Under the pieces are notes generated by a model. That model was not told the DNA's origin. It was given only the letters and a program-made list of their open reading frames with translations, and did no database searches. From assembly GCA_947474435.1 (NCBI GenBank), contig CANJII010000003.1, positions 1 to 64,000 of the forward strand: a stretch of DNA of 64,000 nt, written 5' to 3'. Position numbers and translations under genes: made by a program. Positions within the stretch are counted from its first letter, which is position 1; the number at the start of each line of letters is the position of its first letter. This DNA comes from Chitinophagaceae bacterium. Lineage in GTDB: Bacteria > Bacteroidota > Bacteroidia > Chitinophagales > UBA10324. Shown here piece by piece: positions 508-7,593 of the stretch.

Positions 508-915
508 ATGGATGTCCACAGCAAAAAAGTAAGGAGCTATAATATGTCGCGGGTGAAAAGTAAAAACACCAAGCCCGAAATGCTGGTGCGGAAATTTCTT
601 TTTGCGCATGGATACCGTTACACTTTGCACGATAAAAAATTACCCGGCAAGCCCGACATTGTTTTACCGAAGTACCGCACTGTAATATTTGTGCATGGCT
701 GCTTCTGGCACGGACATAAAAACTGCAAGTACTTTACAATACCCAAAACACGCACGGCGTGGTGGAAGAATAAAATTGAACACAACAGTGCAAATGATAA
801 GAAGAATATAAAATTATTGAAGAAAGATAACTGGAAGGTGATTGAAATATGGGAGTGTAAATTGAAAGCACAAAAGCAGCAAACAACTTTATTGAAACTT
901 CTGAAAAGTCTGTAA
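508..915 (+). CDS. vsr: Very short patch repair endonuclease (Vsr)
   Basis: This 135-residue protein is of normal Vsr length. Vsr nicks DNA 5' of the T in T:G mismatches that arise when 5-methylcytosine deaminates at sites methylated by a partner methyltransferase. Asp50 (in PGKPDIVL), His63 and His68 (in FVHGCFWHGH) match the metal and catalytic residues Asp51, His64 and His69 of the E. coli enzyme. The C-terminal IWECKLK is also typical. It is the first gene of a cassette with a C5-methyltransferase and an endonuclease, which makes the repair role coherent: it would protect the genome from mutation at its own methylated sites. The AT-rich spacer before it suggests acquisition together with the cassette. 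Confidence 0.93.
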   Translation: MDVHSKKVRSYNMSRVKSKNTKPEMLVRKFLFAHGYRYTLHDKKLPGKPDIVLPKYRTVIFVHGCFWHGHKNCKYFTIPKTRTAWWKNKIEHNSANDKKNIKLLKKDNWKVIEIWECKLKAQKQQTTLLKLLKSL

Positions 916-949
916 GACTTAATTAAAGTTTTAAACAAAATCGAAAGTT

Positions 950-975
950 CACTTATAGCCGATTGACTCATAGTC
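950..975 (+). promoter_or_regulatory. C-box-like operator of the controller gene
   Basis: Two similar 11-mers lie just upstream of the controller gene: CACTTATAGCC (950-960) and GACTCATAGTC (965-975). The second matches the GACT-N3-AGTC pattern known for controller-protein boxes of type II restriction systems; the first is degenerate. A wider inverted repeat (CGAAAGT at 942-948, ACTTTCG at 987-993) brackets both. The inferred role is binding of the 79-residue controller to its own promoter, to time endonuclease expression. Confidence 0.6.
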
Positions 976-996
976 CAGTCGAAAATACTTTCGGGC

Positions 997-1236
997 ATGA
1001 ACATTAAGGAAAGAATTGGCGCCCGAATAAAAGAGTTGCGCCTCCAACTTGAACTCACTCAGGAAGCATTAGCATTTAAAGCAGAGGTTGACAAAACTTA
1101 TTTTAATGAAGTTGAAAATGCAAAGCGAAACATCGCTGTTATCAATCTTGAAAAAATAATTCTTGCTCTTGATGTGAGTGTGCAGGATTTTTTTGATTCT
1201 GAATTATTCACTTCTAAAAAACGAGGCAAGAAATGA
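997..1236 (+). CDS. Restriction-modification controller protein (XRE-type HTH)
   Basis: This small 79-residue protein consists almost entirely of an XRE/Cro helix-turn-helix domain (about residues 5-65; ARIKELRLQLELTQEALA then FNEVENAKRNIAVINLEKI). The size and fold are those of controller (C) proteins, which autoregulate and then activate the endonuclease gene after entry into a new host. Its stop overlaps the methyltransferase start in an ATGA junction, and GACTnnnAGTC-like boxes lie directly upstream. Together these favour a C protein over an unrelated XRE regulator. The family is certain; the exact regulatory circuit is inferred. Confidence 0.85.
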   Translation: MNIKERIGARIKELRLQLELTQEALAFKAEVDKTYFNEVENAKRNIAVINLEKIILALDVSVQDFFDSELFTSKKRGKK

Positions 1237-2498
1237 ACGGAGCAAGTGAATATGAATTATTGAAGACAACAATTATTGAATCTGTTGGAAAAAAATTTCT
1301 CGTTGCTCTTTACGGACCTGATAATTATCGCGCTGCGGTAATTACACATTATGCTTATTCGAGAAATAGGAAATTAAGAAATACTGCAATTCAATATCTC
1401 AATGAAATCCTTAGAGAGAATGATGAATTCGAAATGCCCGATGTAGTTGCAGAGGAAGCAATTCAAACCTATTTCAATTTCGATGATATTCCTTTTCATA
1501 AACCGAAGAAGCCATCATTTACATTCATTGATTTGTTTGCAGGGATTGGCGGTTTCAGAATTGCAATGCAATCTCTCAATGGTGAATGTGTTTTTTCTTC
1601 TGAGTGGGATGAAGAAGCTCAGAAAACATATTACGCAAACTTTGGAGAAATTCCTTTTGGTGATATAACACAACAAAGAACTAAAGACTGGATTCCAAAA
1701 CAATTTGATGTTTTGTGTGCGGGCTTTCCATGTCAGGCATTTTCAATTGCAGGAAAACGAGGTGGGTTTAATGATACAAGAGGAACATTATTTTTTGATG
1801 TTGCTACTATTATTGAAAAGCATAAACCAAAAGCAATTTTTCTTGAAAATGTAAAAGGGCTTGTAAATCATGATGGCGGAAAAACACTCTCAACAATTCT
1901 CAATGTACTCAGAGAAGATTTAAATTATTATGTACCGAAGCCGCAAATTATAAATGCAAAATATTTTGGTGTTCCTCAAAACAGAGAGAGAATTTATATA
2001 GTTGGTTTCCGACAAGACCAAAAAGTAAATGAATTTGAATACCCTGAATCAAAAGATATAACAAAGAAAATTACTGATGTGTTTGAAGACAAGCCGGTGT
2101 CAAGCAAATATTATTTATCAAATCAATATCTTAATACTTTAATAAAGCACAAAGAAAGGCACGCAAGTAAAGGAAATGGTTTTGGCTATGAAATAATTCC
2201 TCATCACGGTGTTGCAAACGCAATTGTTGTCGGTGGAATGGGAAGAGAAAGAAATTTAGTTGAAGACAATCGTCAAAAGGATTTGACGCCTGTTACACAT
2301 ATTAAAGGCACGGTAAATACACAAGGCATAAGAAGATTAACTCCGCTTGAATGGAAAAGGCTACAAGGTTTTCCTGAAGAGTTTAAGATTAATGCAGTTT
2401 CAGATGCATCACTCTATCGGCAGTTTGGAAATTCAGTTGCCGTTCCGGCAATAAAAGCAACAGCAAAAAATTTACTTGAAAAAATAAATCTTATTTAA
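1233..2498 (+). CDS. DNA (cytosine-5-)-methyltransferase
   Basis: This 421-residue C5-methyltransferase transfers a methyl group from SAM to cytosine in DNA. The motifs are in canonical order: motif I IDLFAGIGG (about 99-107), catalytic motif IV GFPCQ (Cys167), motif VI ENV (205-207), motif VIII QNRERIYIVG, a variable target-recognition region, and motifs IX/X near the C-terminus (RLTPLEWKRLQGFPE and YRQFGNSVAVP). An N-terminal extension of about 95 residues precedes motif I and is not part of the core fold. It overlaps the controller gene by 4 nt and ends 1 nt before the endonuclease gene. Because that neighbour looks HpaII-like, the likely target is CCGG (inference). Confidence 0.95.
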   Translation: MNGASEYELLKTTIIESVGKKFLVALYGPDNYRAAVITHYAYSRNRKLRNTAIQYLNEILRENDEFEMPDVVAEEAIQTYFNFDDIPFHKPKKPSFTFIDLFAGIGGFRIAMQSLNGECVFSSEWDEEAQKTYYANFGEIPFGDITQQRTKDWIPKQFDVLCAGFPCQAFSIAGKRGGFNDTRGTLFFDVATIIEKHKPKAIFLENVKGLVNHDGGKTLSTILNVLREDLNYYVPKPQIINAKYFGVPQNRERIYIVGFRQDQKVNEFEYPESKDITKKITDVFEDKPVSSKYYLSNQYLNTLIKHKERHASKGNGFGYEIIPHHGVANAIVVGGMGRERNLVEDNRQKDLTPVTHIKGTVNTQGIRRLTPLEWKRLQGFPEEFKINAVSDASLYRQFGNSVAVPAIKATAKNLLEKINLI

Positions 2499-2499
2499 T

Positions 2500-3591
2500 A
2501 TGCCAACAACTGGAAATAAAGGTGAGTGGAGTGAAATATATGTTTTACTTAGACTTCTATCGGACTTAAAGTTATTTTCTGCTGATGAAAATCTCAACAA
2601 GACAGATTCATTTCTAAATATTATTAGTATTAAAAGAAATGATAATGGAGAATTCAAATATTTTCCTCAAAGAGGAAATGTAAATGTTATTGATGCTTCA
2701 ACAAATGAGACAATCTTTTCAATTTCAACTTCTGAGTTATCTGTTCTTTCAAAAAAAATATTTAACCAAATAAAAGCAGGGCGTGGTTCTTCTTTTTCAA
2801 TGAGTTCCAGTGTTCAAAATGATTTAAAAGATTTATCAATAAATAAACTTAAGGAGTCTTCGAATAGCAAGGGCGATATAAATATTTATTTACACGACCC
2901 GTCTTGTGGAATTAATACAGAGAAAAAATTCAGCATTAAATCTTTTATCGGAAGCTCTCCAACATTATTCAATGCAAACAAGACAACAAATATTATTTAT
3001 GAAATAAAAAATTCAGAAAACACTCCGCTCACTTCGGGTTTAATTTCAAAAATCAATTCAATTGATACTAATCATAAATACATTGATAGAATTAATGCAA
3101 TAATTTCTAATGATTATAAACTGAAATTTTATGGTTACGAGGATGAAACTTTTTTATTAAATCTAGAACTCATTGATAGCAAGCTTCCTGAAATTTTAGC
3201 TTTTGCAGTTCTTGAAAAATATGCAAATAGAATTTCAAAGATTCCGGAAGTAATAGAAAACCTGAATCTCAAAAACCCAATGAAATACAATTTGAATCTT
3301 GGACACAATTTTTATGAATATCGAATTATAAATTTTTTAGTTGAGGTTTCCTTAGGAATGACTTCGGCTGTAGTTTGGAATGGTGTGCATGATGCTACAG
3401 GAGGTATCATTATTGTCAAAGATGATTCTGAAGTTTTATGCTATCATCTTATTGAGTTCAATAAATTCAAGGCTTATCTTAAAAAGGCTGCACGCCTTGA
3501 TAATCCTTCGGGTAGTAGAATGGGATATGGTGTTATCTATAAAGAAAATGAAAAAACATTTATCAAATTGAATTTTCAAGTCAAGGCTTAA
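2500..3591 (+). CDS. HpaII-family type II restriction endonuclease
   Basis: This 363-residue protein has the N-terminus NKGEWSEIYVLLRLL, which I recognise as the signature of the HpaII endonuclease family (C-CGG cutters). SADENLNK shortly after also fits. The start is the ATG two bases after the methyltransferase stop. Restriction enzymes diverge fast and I cannot point to a proven catalytic triad, so the specificity rests on family resemblance and on the upstream methyltransferase and Vsr. The gene is conspicuously AT-rich, rich in Asn/Lys/Ile/Ser codons, and ends at a strong hairpin terminator. These are signs of an imported cassette. Confidence 0.8.
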   Translation: MPTTGNKGEWSEIYVLLRLLSDLKLFSADENLNKTDSFLNIISIKRNDNGEFKYFPQRGNVNVIDASTNETIFSISTSELSVLSKKIFNQIKAGRGSSFSMSSSVQNDLKDLSINKLKESSNSKGDINIYLHDPSCGINTEKKFSIKSFIGSSPTLFNANKTTNIIYEIKNSENTPLTSGLISKINSIDTNHKYIDRINAIISNDYKLKFYGYEDETFLLNLELIDSKLPEILAFAVLEKYANRISKIPEVIENLNLKNPMKYNLNLGHNFYEYRIINFLVEVSLGMTSAVVWNGVHDATGGIIIVKDDSEVLCYHLIEFNKFKAYLKKAARLDNPSGSRMGYGVIYKENEKTFIKLNFQVKA

Positions 3592-3612: not shown

Positions 3613-3641
3613 CCCCGAAGAAAAATCTTCAGGGCTTTTTT
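3613..3641. terminator. Bidirectional intrinsic terminator
   Basis: A hairpin of CCCCGAAGA and TCTTCAGGG (one C-A mismatch, AAA(A) loop) is followed by CTTTTTT on the plus strand and preceded by an A-run that gives a T-run on the minus strand. It sits between the convergent endonuclease gene and the gene ending at 3662 and can serve both. Confidence 0.8.
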
Positions 3642-3661: not shown

Positions 3662-4624
3662 TTACACCAACTTCAATCTCACTTCAAGTTTAGCATCAAC
3701 TCCTGTTTCCACTTCCTTAATTCCACCCGCAACAATTCTTCCTGCTAAAGTGCAGGTCCATTTATATTTTCCGGGGTCAAACGATACTAATTTTATTTTT
3801 CCTGTTGCATCAATATTCAGAGTGTGTAACACTGGGTCATTTTGTTTTTGATAAGTAAACACTGCTCCCGTTCCTGCTGCCCCTGTTTCATCAAGCACCA
3901 CATTAATATTCAAACTCGAACTTCCCGGAGGAGAAACCATTTTTAAAACTGTATCAAACACAAAAAGATTTAACAAACCTGCATCACCCCTGCATGCTTT
4001 CAATGAGTCATTATGTATGTCACTCAGTTTATCATTCAAAGCATTATTCGCTAAAATCTTCGATTGTGTTCCCACACCTGTTGTAGTGGCAAGTTTAAAT
4101 TCAGCATACTTATCAGTAAATGCTTTCGCATCATTTTTATATTGCGTCGGAAAAGTATCCGGCATATTCTGATTCACACCTGCAACCACATCAGATAATA
4201 CCACCGTATTATTAAGTATAAAATCATTTCCGTTTCCAACCATGGTCTTTGTGAATTCCCAGTTTTTATTAGCCGCTTTCCGGTAATTGGTCATACCCGC
4301 AATTCCGTACTGGCTTTCTCTTTCTGCCTCCGGAAAAATATCAATGTAACCCTTTAAGTCCTGTTGATTATTCAGGCACTTAGTGTTCAGCACTTCCAAC
4401 TGCACGCGCAGTTGTTCCCCTTTACCGCTCCGCACATCATCATCAGGAAGTGCTTGAGCGTCCGCAAGTTCTTGCTCCAGATCAGTAATCATCTGAGCAA
4501 TGTACTTGCCTTTGTACGCTTTGAATTTTGCAAGATTGGTGTCAAGGTTTCCAATCATGGTTTCTGCAACAGAATAAAATTCTGACTGCATGCAATCGTA
4601 ATTTGGGTCTGGAATGTTTGCCAT
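3662..4624 (-). CDS. Hypothetical protein, unknown family
   Basis: This 320-residue protein starts MANIPDPNYD and has no signal peptide or membrane segment. The first two thirds look helical (Glu/Lys/Gln-rich, for example around DLEQELADAQALPDDD). The C-terminal third has beta-sandwich character: INVVLDETGAAGTGAVFTY then a segment ending in alternating KLEVRLKLV. This suggests a helical domain joined to an Ig- or carboxypeptidase-regulatory-like domain. I do not recognise the family. It stands alone and convergent to the restriction cassette, and its upstream region is the long spacer carrying the phased repeat array. The coding call rests on its length and sharp boundaries. Confidence 0.8.
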   Translation of the reverse strand: MANIPDPNYDCMQSEFYSVAETMIGNLDTNLAKFKAYKGKYIAQMITDLEQELADAQALPDDDVRSGKGEQLRVQLEVLNTKCLNNQQDLKGYIDIFPEAERESQYGIAGMTNYRKAANKNWEFTKTMVGNGNDFILNNTVVLSDVVAGVNQNMPDTFPTQYKNDAKAFTDKYAEFKLATTTGVGTQSKILANNALNDKLSDIHNDSLKACRGDAGLLNLFVFDTVLKMVSPPGSSSLNINVVLDETGAAGTGAVFTYQKQNDPVLHTLNIDATGKIKLVSFDPGKYKWTCTLAGRIVAGGIKEVETGVDAKLEVRLKLV

Positions 4625-4797
4625 TTTGTTGATGGTTTTTTTAGTTAAACAATTTTGTTTTCTTTTCGAATTGAATGTTTAACGCGACCCTGTTTTGCTT
4701 TATTGTATATGATTGAAAAAAAACTCTTTATAGGCTGTCAAACGCCCTGTTTCTTTACAAAACACGCATTTCAGCTCAAAAAGGGCATTTCATGGCA

Positions 4798-5023
4798 TGT
4801 ATAATCCATATCCCCACCATGTATAATTGGTATCCCCTCCTTGTATAATTGGCATCCCTACCTTGTATAATTTATCTTGGCTCGTGTATAATCTGCATCC
4901 CCTTATTGCATAATTAATTTCCGTCCGTGTATATGCAGCACCCCTTACTTGCATAACTCGCATCTTCATATTGCATTATCAGTTTCCCATCCGTGTATTA
5001 TTAATCTTGGTGCTTGTATAATT
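4798..5023 (+). repeat. Phased degenerate tandem array, 11 units of 21-22 bp
   Basis: A TGTATAAT-like core (consensus TGYATWAT) recurs with starts at 4798, 4820, 4842, 4864, 4885, 4907, 4928, 4950, 4972, 4994 and 5015, giving spacings of 22,22,22,21,22,21,22,22,22,21. The segments between cores are C-rich (such as ATCCCC) but diverged, so core and spacing are kept better than the spacers. The spacing equals two DNA helical turns, placing all cores on one face. The array ends just before the OmpA-family gene at 5072. A protein-binding array is one reading; an old, decayed minisatellite is the other. The period is not a multiple of three, so it is not coding. Confidence 0.85.
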
Positions 5024-5044
5024 AATTTCAATACTTATTAATAA

Positions 5045-5071: not shown

Positions 5072-5914
5072 ATGCTTATGAAAAAGATATTACTGTTTCT
5101 CACCACCATTATTTCCATCTCCGCATCGGTGCTTGCACAGGATACAGAGGGCACCTTCGACCACCCGATGTTTCCGACCCGCATGACCAATTACATCCGC
5201 ACCGAGTACAGCACCAATTTCGATGCAGCAGATTTTTCCACCACAGCAGGCGGCAACGATGTGGTGACCAAGGAAGGCACCAAAACAATGGTGCGCTACG
5301 ATTTCAATACCGAGTCGGGTGCATCGAAACCAAGTGTGCTGCAGATTCTGCGCAACTATGAAGCCGCTGCAAAAAAAGTGGGCGCTGTAACCGTGTTCCT
5401 CAGTGCCGATGAAGGAATCGGTACCTATAAAATTGTAAAAGATGGTTCGGAAGTGTGGGTGAAAATTGAATGCGGCGGCGATGGCGGCAATGATTTTTAT
5501 TACCTCACGGTGCTGGAGGTGGCTCCGATGGTGCAGGAAATAACTTCAACAGATATTTTATCGGCGCTCACCAAGGACGGGCACATGGCATTGTACATCA
5601 ACTTCGAAACCGGCACGGCAGATATAAAAACAGAATCAATGGTCACCATTGATCAGTTGGTGGAAATGCTGAAAGCAAACCCAACACTCAAAATAAGTAT
5701 TGAAGGTCACACCGATAATGTGGGCACAGCAGCAGCGAATCAAACCCTGTCGGAAAACCGCGCGAAGGCTGTGATGAATGCAATTATTGCCGTGGGTATC
5801 AGCGCGACACAGCTGTCAGCAAAAGGATGGGGCGCTACAAAACCCATTGCCGATAATACCACTGACGATGGCAAGGCAAAAAACCGCCGCGTGGAAATAG
5901 TGAAGGTGAACTGA
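5072..5914 (+). CDS. OmpA-family outer membrane/peptidoglycan-associated protein
   Basis: This 280-residue protein has an N-terminal signal peptide (MKKILLFLTTIISISASVLAQ; the Met at residue 3, position 5078, is an equally good start). An N-terminal domain of about 140 residues follows that I do not recognise. The C-terminal OmpA/MotB domain (about 170-279) has the hallmark IEGHTDNVG, LSENRAKAV and KNRRVEIV, which in this family bind the meso-diaminopimelate of peptidoglycan. The likely place is the periplasmic face of the outer membrane. Its codons are more GC-rich than the flanking spacers. The phased repeat array lies directly upstream. Confidence 0.9.
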   Translation: MLMKKILLFLTTIISISASVLAQDTEGTFDHPMFPTRMTNYIRTEYSTNFDAADFSTTAGGNDVVTKEGTKTMVRYDFNTESGASKPSVLQILRNYEAAAKKVGAVTVFLSADEGIGTYKIVKDGSEVWVKIECGGDGGNDFYYLTVLEVAPMVQEITSTDILSALTKDGHMALYINFETGTADIKTESMVTIDQLVEMLKANPTLKISIEGHTDNVGTAAANQTLSENRAKAVMNAIIAVGISATQLSAKGWGATKPIADNTTDDGKAKNRRVEIVKVN

Positions 5915-6957: not shown

Positions 6958-7593
6958 ATGAAGAAGATAATCTTCTTTTTTTTAATGCCGGTTAGCTTAA
7001 AACTGGCAAAGTACACCGATGAGAAACTGATTGTTTTCATCAACAATGTACTCATTTCTATAATAGCCAATGCGGCCATCTTTGTTAACACTCAGGCATT
7101 ACTGCCCGCTATGAAAACGGCGATAAAAAATTTCTCGGATGCCTGTGCAGCAGTAAAAAATGGACCTGCCGGATCGGCTGCCGCCAAGGATGCGCTCCGG
7201 CTGCAGTTGGAAACGCTGATTAACCAAATGGCTGTTTCATGCTGGACAGAATCAGTTAACAGCATTGATACTTTTAAGAAAAGCGGATTCAACACCCGCA
7301 AACCTTTTGAGCACATTCTATCGCTTTTAACACCTGTGAAGTTATTGCTGAAACAATGCAGCTTTCCAAATTCGTTGCAACTTACTTTTAAAGCTGTTGA
7401 ACATGCAGTGTACTACAAAATCCGAGTAATGCTCACCGATGGAACTGTGGTAGCTGAATTGACCACCACTGATTCCCGCAAAACAATTATCACTGATTTG
7501 AAAAGAGGTGAACATTACTTTGTGCAGGTTTCGGCTTGTTCTGCAAAAATTCAGAGCGAGTGGAGTTCAAAAGTAGATGCTATTTGCGCCTAA
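6958..7593 (+). CDS. Fibronectin type III-like domain protein
   Basis: This 211-residue protein has a mostly helical N-terminal region (about 20-110: KTAIKNFSDACAAVKNG, KDALRLQLETLINQMA). The C-terminal fibronectin-III-like beta domain (about 125-211) ends YFVQVSACSAKIQSEWSS, matching the usual end of FN3 domains. Bacteroidota genomes commonly carry one-domain proteins of this layout and length whose role is unknown. The very start (MKKIIFFFLMP) is hydrophobic but is not followed by a normal cleavage site, so secretion is doubtful. A strong terminator lies 90 bp downstream. Confidence 0.8.
   Translation: MKKIIFFFLMPVSLKLAKYTDEKLIVFINNVLISIIANAAIFVNTQALLPAMKTAIKNFSDACAAVKNGPAGSAAAKDALRLQLETLINQMAVSCWTESVNSIDTFKKSGFNTRKPFEHILSLLTPVKLLLKQCSFPNSLQLTFKAVEHAVYYKIRVMLTDGTVVAELTTTDSRKTIITDLKRGEHYFVQVSACSAKIQSEWSSKVDAICA

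Follow-up and report, generated by a model that had tools for sequence, protein, structure and literature searches.

In the window, i.e. the whole stretch of 64,000 nucleotides analysed here, a degenerate tandem array separates a gene for an OmpA-domain protein from a divergently oriented orphan gene coding for a protein of 320 amino acids (Table 1). This arrangement raises the question to which of the two genes the array belongs and what it does there.

Table 1. Features around the tandem array, given as positions in the window.
Feature	Position	Strand	Remark
Terminator-like hairpin (CCCGAAGA...TCTTCAGGG)	3614..3634	.	after the 320-aa gene
320-aa orphan gene	3662..4624	-	divergent from the array; arrays are associated with its family
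Gap between array and start codon of the 320-aa gene	4625..4797	-	173 bp; promoter expected here
Degenerate tandem array	4798..5036	.	11 units of 21/22 bp
OmpA-domain gene	5078..5914	+	on the other side of the array; orthologs without arrays

The units of the array start at positions 4798, 4820, 4842, 4864, 4885, 4907, 4928, 4950, 4972, 4994, and 5015, giving unit-to-unit spacings of 22, 22, 22, 21, 22, 21, 22, 22, 22, and 21 bp. Tandem Repeats Finder detected the array unprompted, with a period of 22 and 10.7 copies. The plus-strand unit consensus, TGYATWATYnRYATCCCCnnCn, comprises two conserved blocks with about one helical turn between them. According to the original prediction, the core TGYATWAT occurs 11 times. 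The array and its 21/22-bp spacing were borne out, but the exact core is present in only 9 of the 11 units: the cores of units 7 (TGTATATG) and 8 (TGCATAAC) carry two mismatches and one mismatch, respectively. By itself, TGYATWAT is uninformative, because 17 exact matches on both strands of the 64-kb window stand against 16 expected by chance; the telling feature is that nine exact cores lie inside 225 bp at fixed spacing. The claim that the core is better kept than the rest of the unit held true. Mean pairwise identity of the units is 0.84 in the eight core columns vs 0.43 elsewhere (p = 0.0025 with column order permuted and any 8-column window allowed), and a second conserved spot occurs in the C-rich segment at unit columns 14-15, at a distance of about one turn from the core. 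Its own genome contains one copy of the array, and the five congeners searched contain none.

The array had been assigned to the OmpA-domain gene. Its end lies about 40 bp before the OmpA start codon, closer than to the 320-aa gene, and joint control of both divergent genes is possible in the window's own genome. However, the closest full-length OmpA orthologs, which share 61% (L009), 53% (L010), and 37% (L013) identity, all lack an upstream array, and what array-bearing loci elsewhere have in common is a gene of the 320-aa family. In the five congeners searched, matches cover the common OmpA domain alone, with no full-length copy. With the repeat-finder setting used for the 320-aa family, arrays were detected at 2 of 110 windows around OmpA genes. 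This leaves very little room for the reading that the array governs the OmpA gene.

The 320-aa protein has no match in Pfam. Its AlphaFold2 model (44 homologs, pLDDT 95.8) consists of an N-terminal helical bundle and a C-terminal transthyretin/CnaB-like (CarboxypepD_reg-like) domain; residues 235-320 match transthyretin, CnaB, and carboxypeptidase-regulatory domains with Z scores of about 10-13. For the N-terminal bundle, Foldseek returned no significant match in the PDB, and the best VIA-align Z score of 8.6 is too low to be informative for helical bundles. Members of the family are acidic (median pI 5.1) and contain no recognised DNA-binding domain. Despite its acidic charge, the 320-aa protein is itself a candidate binder of the array. 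A known anti-phage defence protein was discarded as an identity since PADLOC gave no match in the family, and a phage protein since PHROG matches were weak and directed to the C-terminal domain of one homolog. No family members were found on plasmids. The own-genome paralog (L126) and the homolog L131 also have a hairpin at the gene end.

In 392 genomes of the order, a profile search recovered about fifty members of the 320-aa family, for which the surroundings were fetched. The first clear homologs carried 21- or 22-bp arrays upstream, with different unit sequences. Using one repeat-finder setting and calling arrays of at least 120 bp with a period of 15-48 within 800 bp, we detected an upstream array in 35 of 52 family members of the order, compared to a downstream array in 2 of 49 (within 800 bp; Fisher p 5e-12) and an array in 2 of 169 distal windows of the same loci (Fisher p 2e-25); these p-values overstate independence because the loci are related, though the arrays span several genera and extend outside the order. 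The corresponding count for own-genome windows was 1 of 216. Every upstream period was 21, 22, or doubled (42-44), though 15-48 was allowed. Among the 32 arrays analysed for their layout, the median number of units is 10.2 (IQR 9.0-11.4), and 55-577 bp separate the array end from the start codon. In 1.05 Mb of the own genome, intergenic arrays of this kind with about ten units were present only at the two family genes in the sample. A second, phylum-wide profile search extended the family to three genomes beyond the order and to a third own-genome copy, and 5 of 6 further testable members from this set had 21-bp arrays upstream.

TGYATWAT had also been put forward as the motif by which relatives could be recognised. 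Here the prediction did not hold, since the core is not conserved in other arrays; what is conserved is spacing and position. As a universal motif, TGYATWAT was rejected: a triple-core search of 396 genomes returned four others and the reversed control one genome, and in the four others one match was coding and the remainder had unrelated spacers. Viral contigs gave no real match.

Several repeats of other kinds were recorded during the survey. L089 (9051-9410) contains a 21-bp array of 17 near-identical units (97% matches) between yidC and a dihydropyrimidinase-like gene, with no family gene near. In genome G040, a degenerate array with a 42-bp period (2 x 21) lies upstream of a type I restriction operon (L091 454-772, i.e. 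L177 7454-7772). In another genome, a few 21/22-bp units follow lysS (L045 1482-1956) beside a 159-bp repeat of 2.6 copies, which contains GGGGTTGCACCCCGGGCTACAAACACACGGCACC and has the look of a dispersed element. A dispersed repeat of about 210 bp (TTCTTTTGGCTTGAACCAAAAGAA...TTTTTTAACGCCAAAATTCACAAGGCCG) occurs near family genes at L130 (4043-4261), L140, L143, L148, L159, and L133; these loci belong to one genus, and the repeat sometimes forms direct repeats on either side of the gene.

Each array has a private unit composed of conserved blocks and short hypervariable blocks. Fourier spectra of the conservation per unit column in 32 arrays showed a power of 0.286 for the second, 10.5-bp harmonic vs 0.099 ± 0.016 when the columns were permuted (0 of 2000). 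Harmonic 1 was raised as well, and harmonic 2 exceeded harmonic 1 in 23 of the 32 arrays and harmonic 3 in 26. Were smoothness the sole cause, harmonic 1 would be the larger one. For the window array, harmonic 1 is slightly larger than harmonic 2. Between-species mismatches peaked at 10.75 bp in the pair L131/L134 and at 10.5 bp in the pair L132/L134, with p-values at 10.5 bp of 0.008 and 0.006, respectively, and of 0.08 in the third alignable pair. The conservation period over 32 homologous loci, together with mismatch peaks at 10.5-10.75 bp in two of the three pairs, agrees with the original view of a phased array on one face of the DNA as opposed to a neutral minisatellite. The two half-units are less alike than expected by chance (p 8e-5) and the units contain no dyad symmetry, which means that the two blocks are different sequences and that the units are arranged head to tail.

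Tandem arrays of this appearance can also arise by replication slippage. Similarity among units and local homogenisation are what slippage yields, and the array sequences of distant loci are unrelated, as a neutral and now decaying minisatellite would have it. Such an origin is nevertheless very unlikely, as neither the strong preference for one side and one gene nor the strict 21/22-bp period, the constant copy number, and the 10.5-bp conservation would be expected of neutral repeats. The length of the unit invites further explanations, since 21 bp corresponds to two helical turns and likewise to seven codons: the arrays might curve the DNA irrespective of sequence, form a structured leader in the RNA, or encode a heptad repeat. 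Some arrays do fold better as RNA than their shuffles (9 of 32 and 7 of 32 with z < -2), but the mean z values are merely -1.1 and -0.4, and Rfam gave no match in ten family loci. Period-3 conservation is not raised in the 32 arrays, which excludes coding, and with it coding heptads, as a general cause; moreover, several arrays have a period of 22 bp. Base composition shows no 10.5-bp period and the second harmonic of A/T content is below chance, ruling out phased A-tract bending as a general cause. Taken together, explanations by curvature, RNA structure, or coding retain only a minimal probability.

Similar arrays accompany a family of short fn3-domain proteins, where 21/22-bp arrays were found upstream in 9 of 14 and downstream in 0 of 14 cases under a slightly wider criterion. 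The fn3 gene at 6958-7593 of the window belongs to this family, and this copy has no array. Some fn3-family arrays (loci L179-L193) carry internal inverted repeats, and the 10.5-bp conservation signal was absent from the seven fn3-family arrays that could be measured.

Arrays and genes are inherited together. The similarity of array consensus sequences tracks protein similarity (Mantel rho 0.20, p 0.001), i.e., related members keep related units whereas distant members do not. An array-plus-gene cassette with 86-89% nucleotide identity recurs in three unrelated contexts, two in G003 and one in G002. On the array side, the homology breaks off close to the distal array end; on the other side it does so at or near the terminator-like hairpin, which in the two G003 copies lies just before the point where the homology stops. 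The own-genome copy on contig C82 (L126) and its counterpart in the congener G003 (L127) are 97% identical over the cassette, with 0 of 209 mismatches in the array and 24 of 942 in the gene, compared to roughly 78-82% identity of the flanking genes; the housekeeping DNA around the cassette diverges by about one fifth. The recurrence in unrelated contexts and the contrast between conserved cassettes and diverged flanks indicate that the unit moves, array and gene together. Between L126 and L127, the 577-bp leader has 0 mismatches, and divergence rises to 2.5% in the gene and 22% in the 3' flank. Such a gradient hints at a recent event of transfer or conversion that proceeded from the array side. 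Gene content varies at the window locus, a hotspot where the congener G003 has other cargo between the same flanks. A Vsr endonuclease, a C5-methyltransferase, and an HpaII-type restriction enzyme are encoded at 508-3591 of the window as part of this hotspot, and a gene for a small Xre-type protein lies at about 997-1236 on the plus strand, directly before that for the C5-methyltransferase.

The same observations could mean that the array is one end of a mobile array-gene cassette, serving or left behind by insertion, recombination, or copying, and that its binder would act in mobility and not in regulation. Recurrence of the cassette, twice within one genome, the 97% identity against diverged flanking genes, and the hotspot nature of the window locus all speak for it. 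However, where the ends were examined by eye, they showed neither terminal inverted repeats nor target-site duplications, and the loci have no recombinase or transposase gene as a conserved neighbour. We consider a role of the array in mobility improbable.

The reading we favour, with moderate confidence, is that the array acts in cis on the divergent 320-aa gene, from a position upstream of it, and that it exemplifies a cassette of array and gene which occurs across the Bacteroidota. In the 173-bp gap of the window locus there is no perfect Bacteroidota promoter consensus and no good match to it. Across the family, four perfect promoter matches (TTTG / TAnnTTTG) lie between array and gene vs 0.28 expected from shuffles. 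This excess suggests that the array is probably an upstream control element of the orphan gene. We infer that a protein binds the array, that it does so cooperatively, and that binding affects transcription. Each array would then offer about ten head-to-tail binding sites of two helical turns, and within every site two unlike contact blocks, separated by one turn, would lie on one face of the DNA. The putative binder would be a protein with sequence specificity that contacts two consecutive major grooves in each unit, its copies lining up next to one another along the array, and the resulting regular nucleoprotein segment upstream of the promoter may set the expression of the orphan gene. One regulator shared by all loci is unlikely, since the array sequences are specific to a locus or a subfamily; as for a conserved neighbouring regulator, small Xre or LuxR-type HTH genes adjoin only about 10 of 50 loci. 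What counts against a regulatory function is that about a third of the family members have no array by our detector, that at three loci the array is located downstream or at a distance, that harmonic 2 is not the stronger one in the window array, whose gap also holds no good promoter match, that the seven fn3-family arrays give no 10.5-bp signal, and that the encoded protein is acidic and has no recognised DNA-binding domain.

A more far-reaching proposal, which we regard as tentative and rather unlikely as a whole, is that of a portable unit in which an orphan helical-bundle/Ig-like gene is joined to a private array of about ten sites, the geometry being fixed throughout the phylum and the sequence being rewritten in concert at each locus. 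If this is true, each cassette would be its own recognition system, used for example to identify itself or for a private autoregulation in which the encoded protein, or else a partner, is the regulator. The conservation of geometry, but not of letters, over the phylum implies that searches by sequence similarity would miss such elements. The arrays also provide a handle on two functionally uncharacterised families of the Bacteroidota, the 320-aa family and the short fn3 family, and pose the question of which protein reads an array whose sequence differs from locus to locus.

Among known systems, AraC/XylS operators resemble the arrays at the level of the unit. AraC/XylS half-sites recur as direct repeats at intervals of about 21 bp, and each contains two unlike boxes separated by one turn; a monomer contacts both boxes with its two HTH motifs, and normally there are two half-sites. 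The arrays share the 10.5-bp conservation, the unlike half-units, and the lack of a dyad, but they have about ten units rather than two and no AraC gene is conserved at the loci; an AraC/XylS protein encoded at a distance is a possible binder. Iterons of plasmids of the R6K, RK2, and P1 type are direct repeats of about 17-22 bp at two-turn spacing, their sequence is private to each replicon, and a protein with two domains reads each unit in two consecutive grooves. Phasing of direct repeats at two turns is likewise found here, with periods of 21/22 in all upstream arrays. In contrast to iterons, the arrays belong to chromosomal cassettes with about ten units and an orphan helical-bundle/Ig-like partner gene. 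Membership among the iterons fails because no Rep gene is present, either among the window neighbours (Pfam) or conserved at family loci.

The parC and tubC centromeres of type II and III partition systems are tandem repeats upstream of an operon, and the protein that wraps the array represses the promoter (PMC5016525). Tandem repeats at one place upstream of a coding unit are common to both, and a layout of about ten one-face direct repeats upstream of a gene, as in these plasmid centromeres (PMC5016525), would fit a site of anchoring or partition-like function at which a protein assembles into a filament, as on parC or sopC, with no role in gene expression. This is improbable, given that no ParM, ParR, TubZ, TubR, or ParA gene is conserved at the loci or recurs nearby, on account of which membership fails here as well, and given that several arrays are present per chromosome. 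Moreover, where the parC/tubC operon encodes a filament NTPase and a centromere-binding protein, the partner of the arrays is one acidic helical-bundle/transthyretin-like protein.

We found no description of such an array class in the open-access literature, an absence that speaks only weakly for novelty. Within the Bacteroidota, the nearest and only relative that turned up there is BrickBuilt of Porphyromonas gingivalis, yet it is a different element. BrickBuilt is a minisatellite-MITE in which a 23-bp unit forms an intergenic tandem array of up to about 23 copies with reported promoter activity; one sequence is present at 19 loci of the genome, with a leader and a tail with inverted ends and without a fixed partner gene (PMC4596501). 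Like BrickBuilt, the arrays described here are intergenic tandem arrays of the Bacteroidota with a unit that is partly conserved and partly not (PMC4596501). Unlike at the inverted-repeat ends of BrickBuilt, no inverted repeats were found flanking the window array, which is single-copy, and the arrays of the 320-aa family have 21/22-bp units whose sequences differ between loci.
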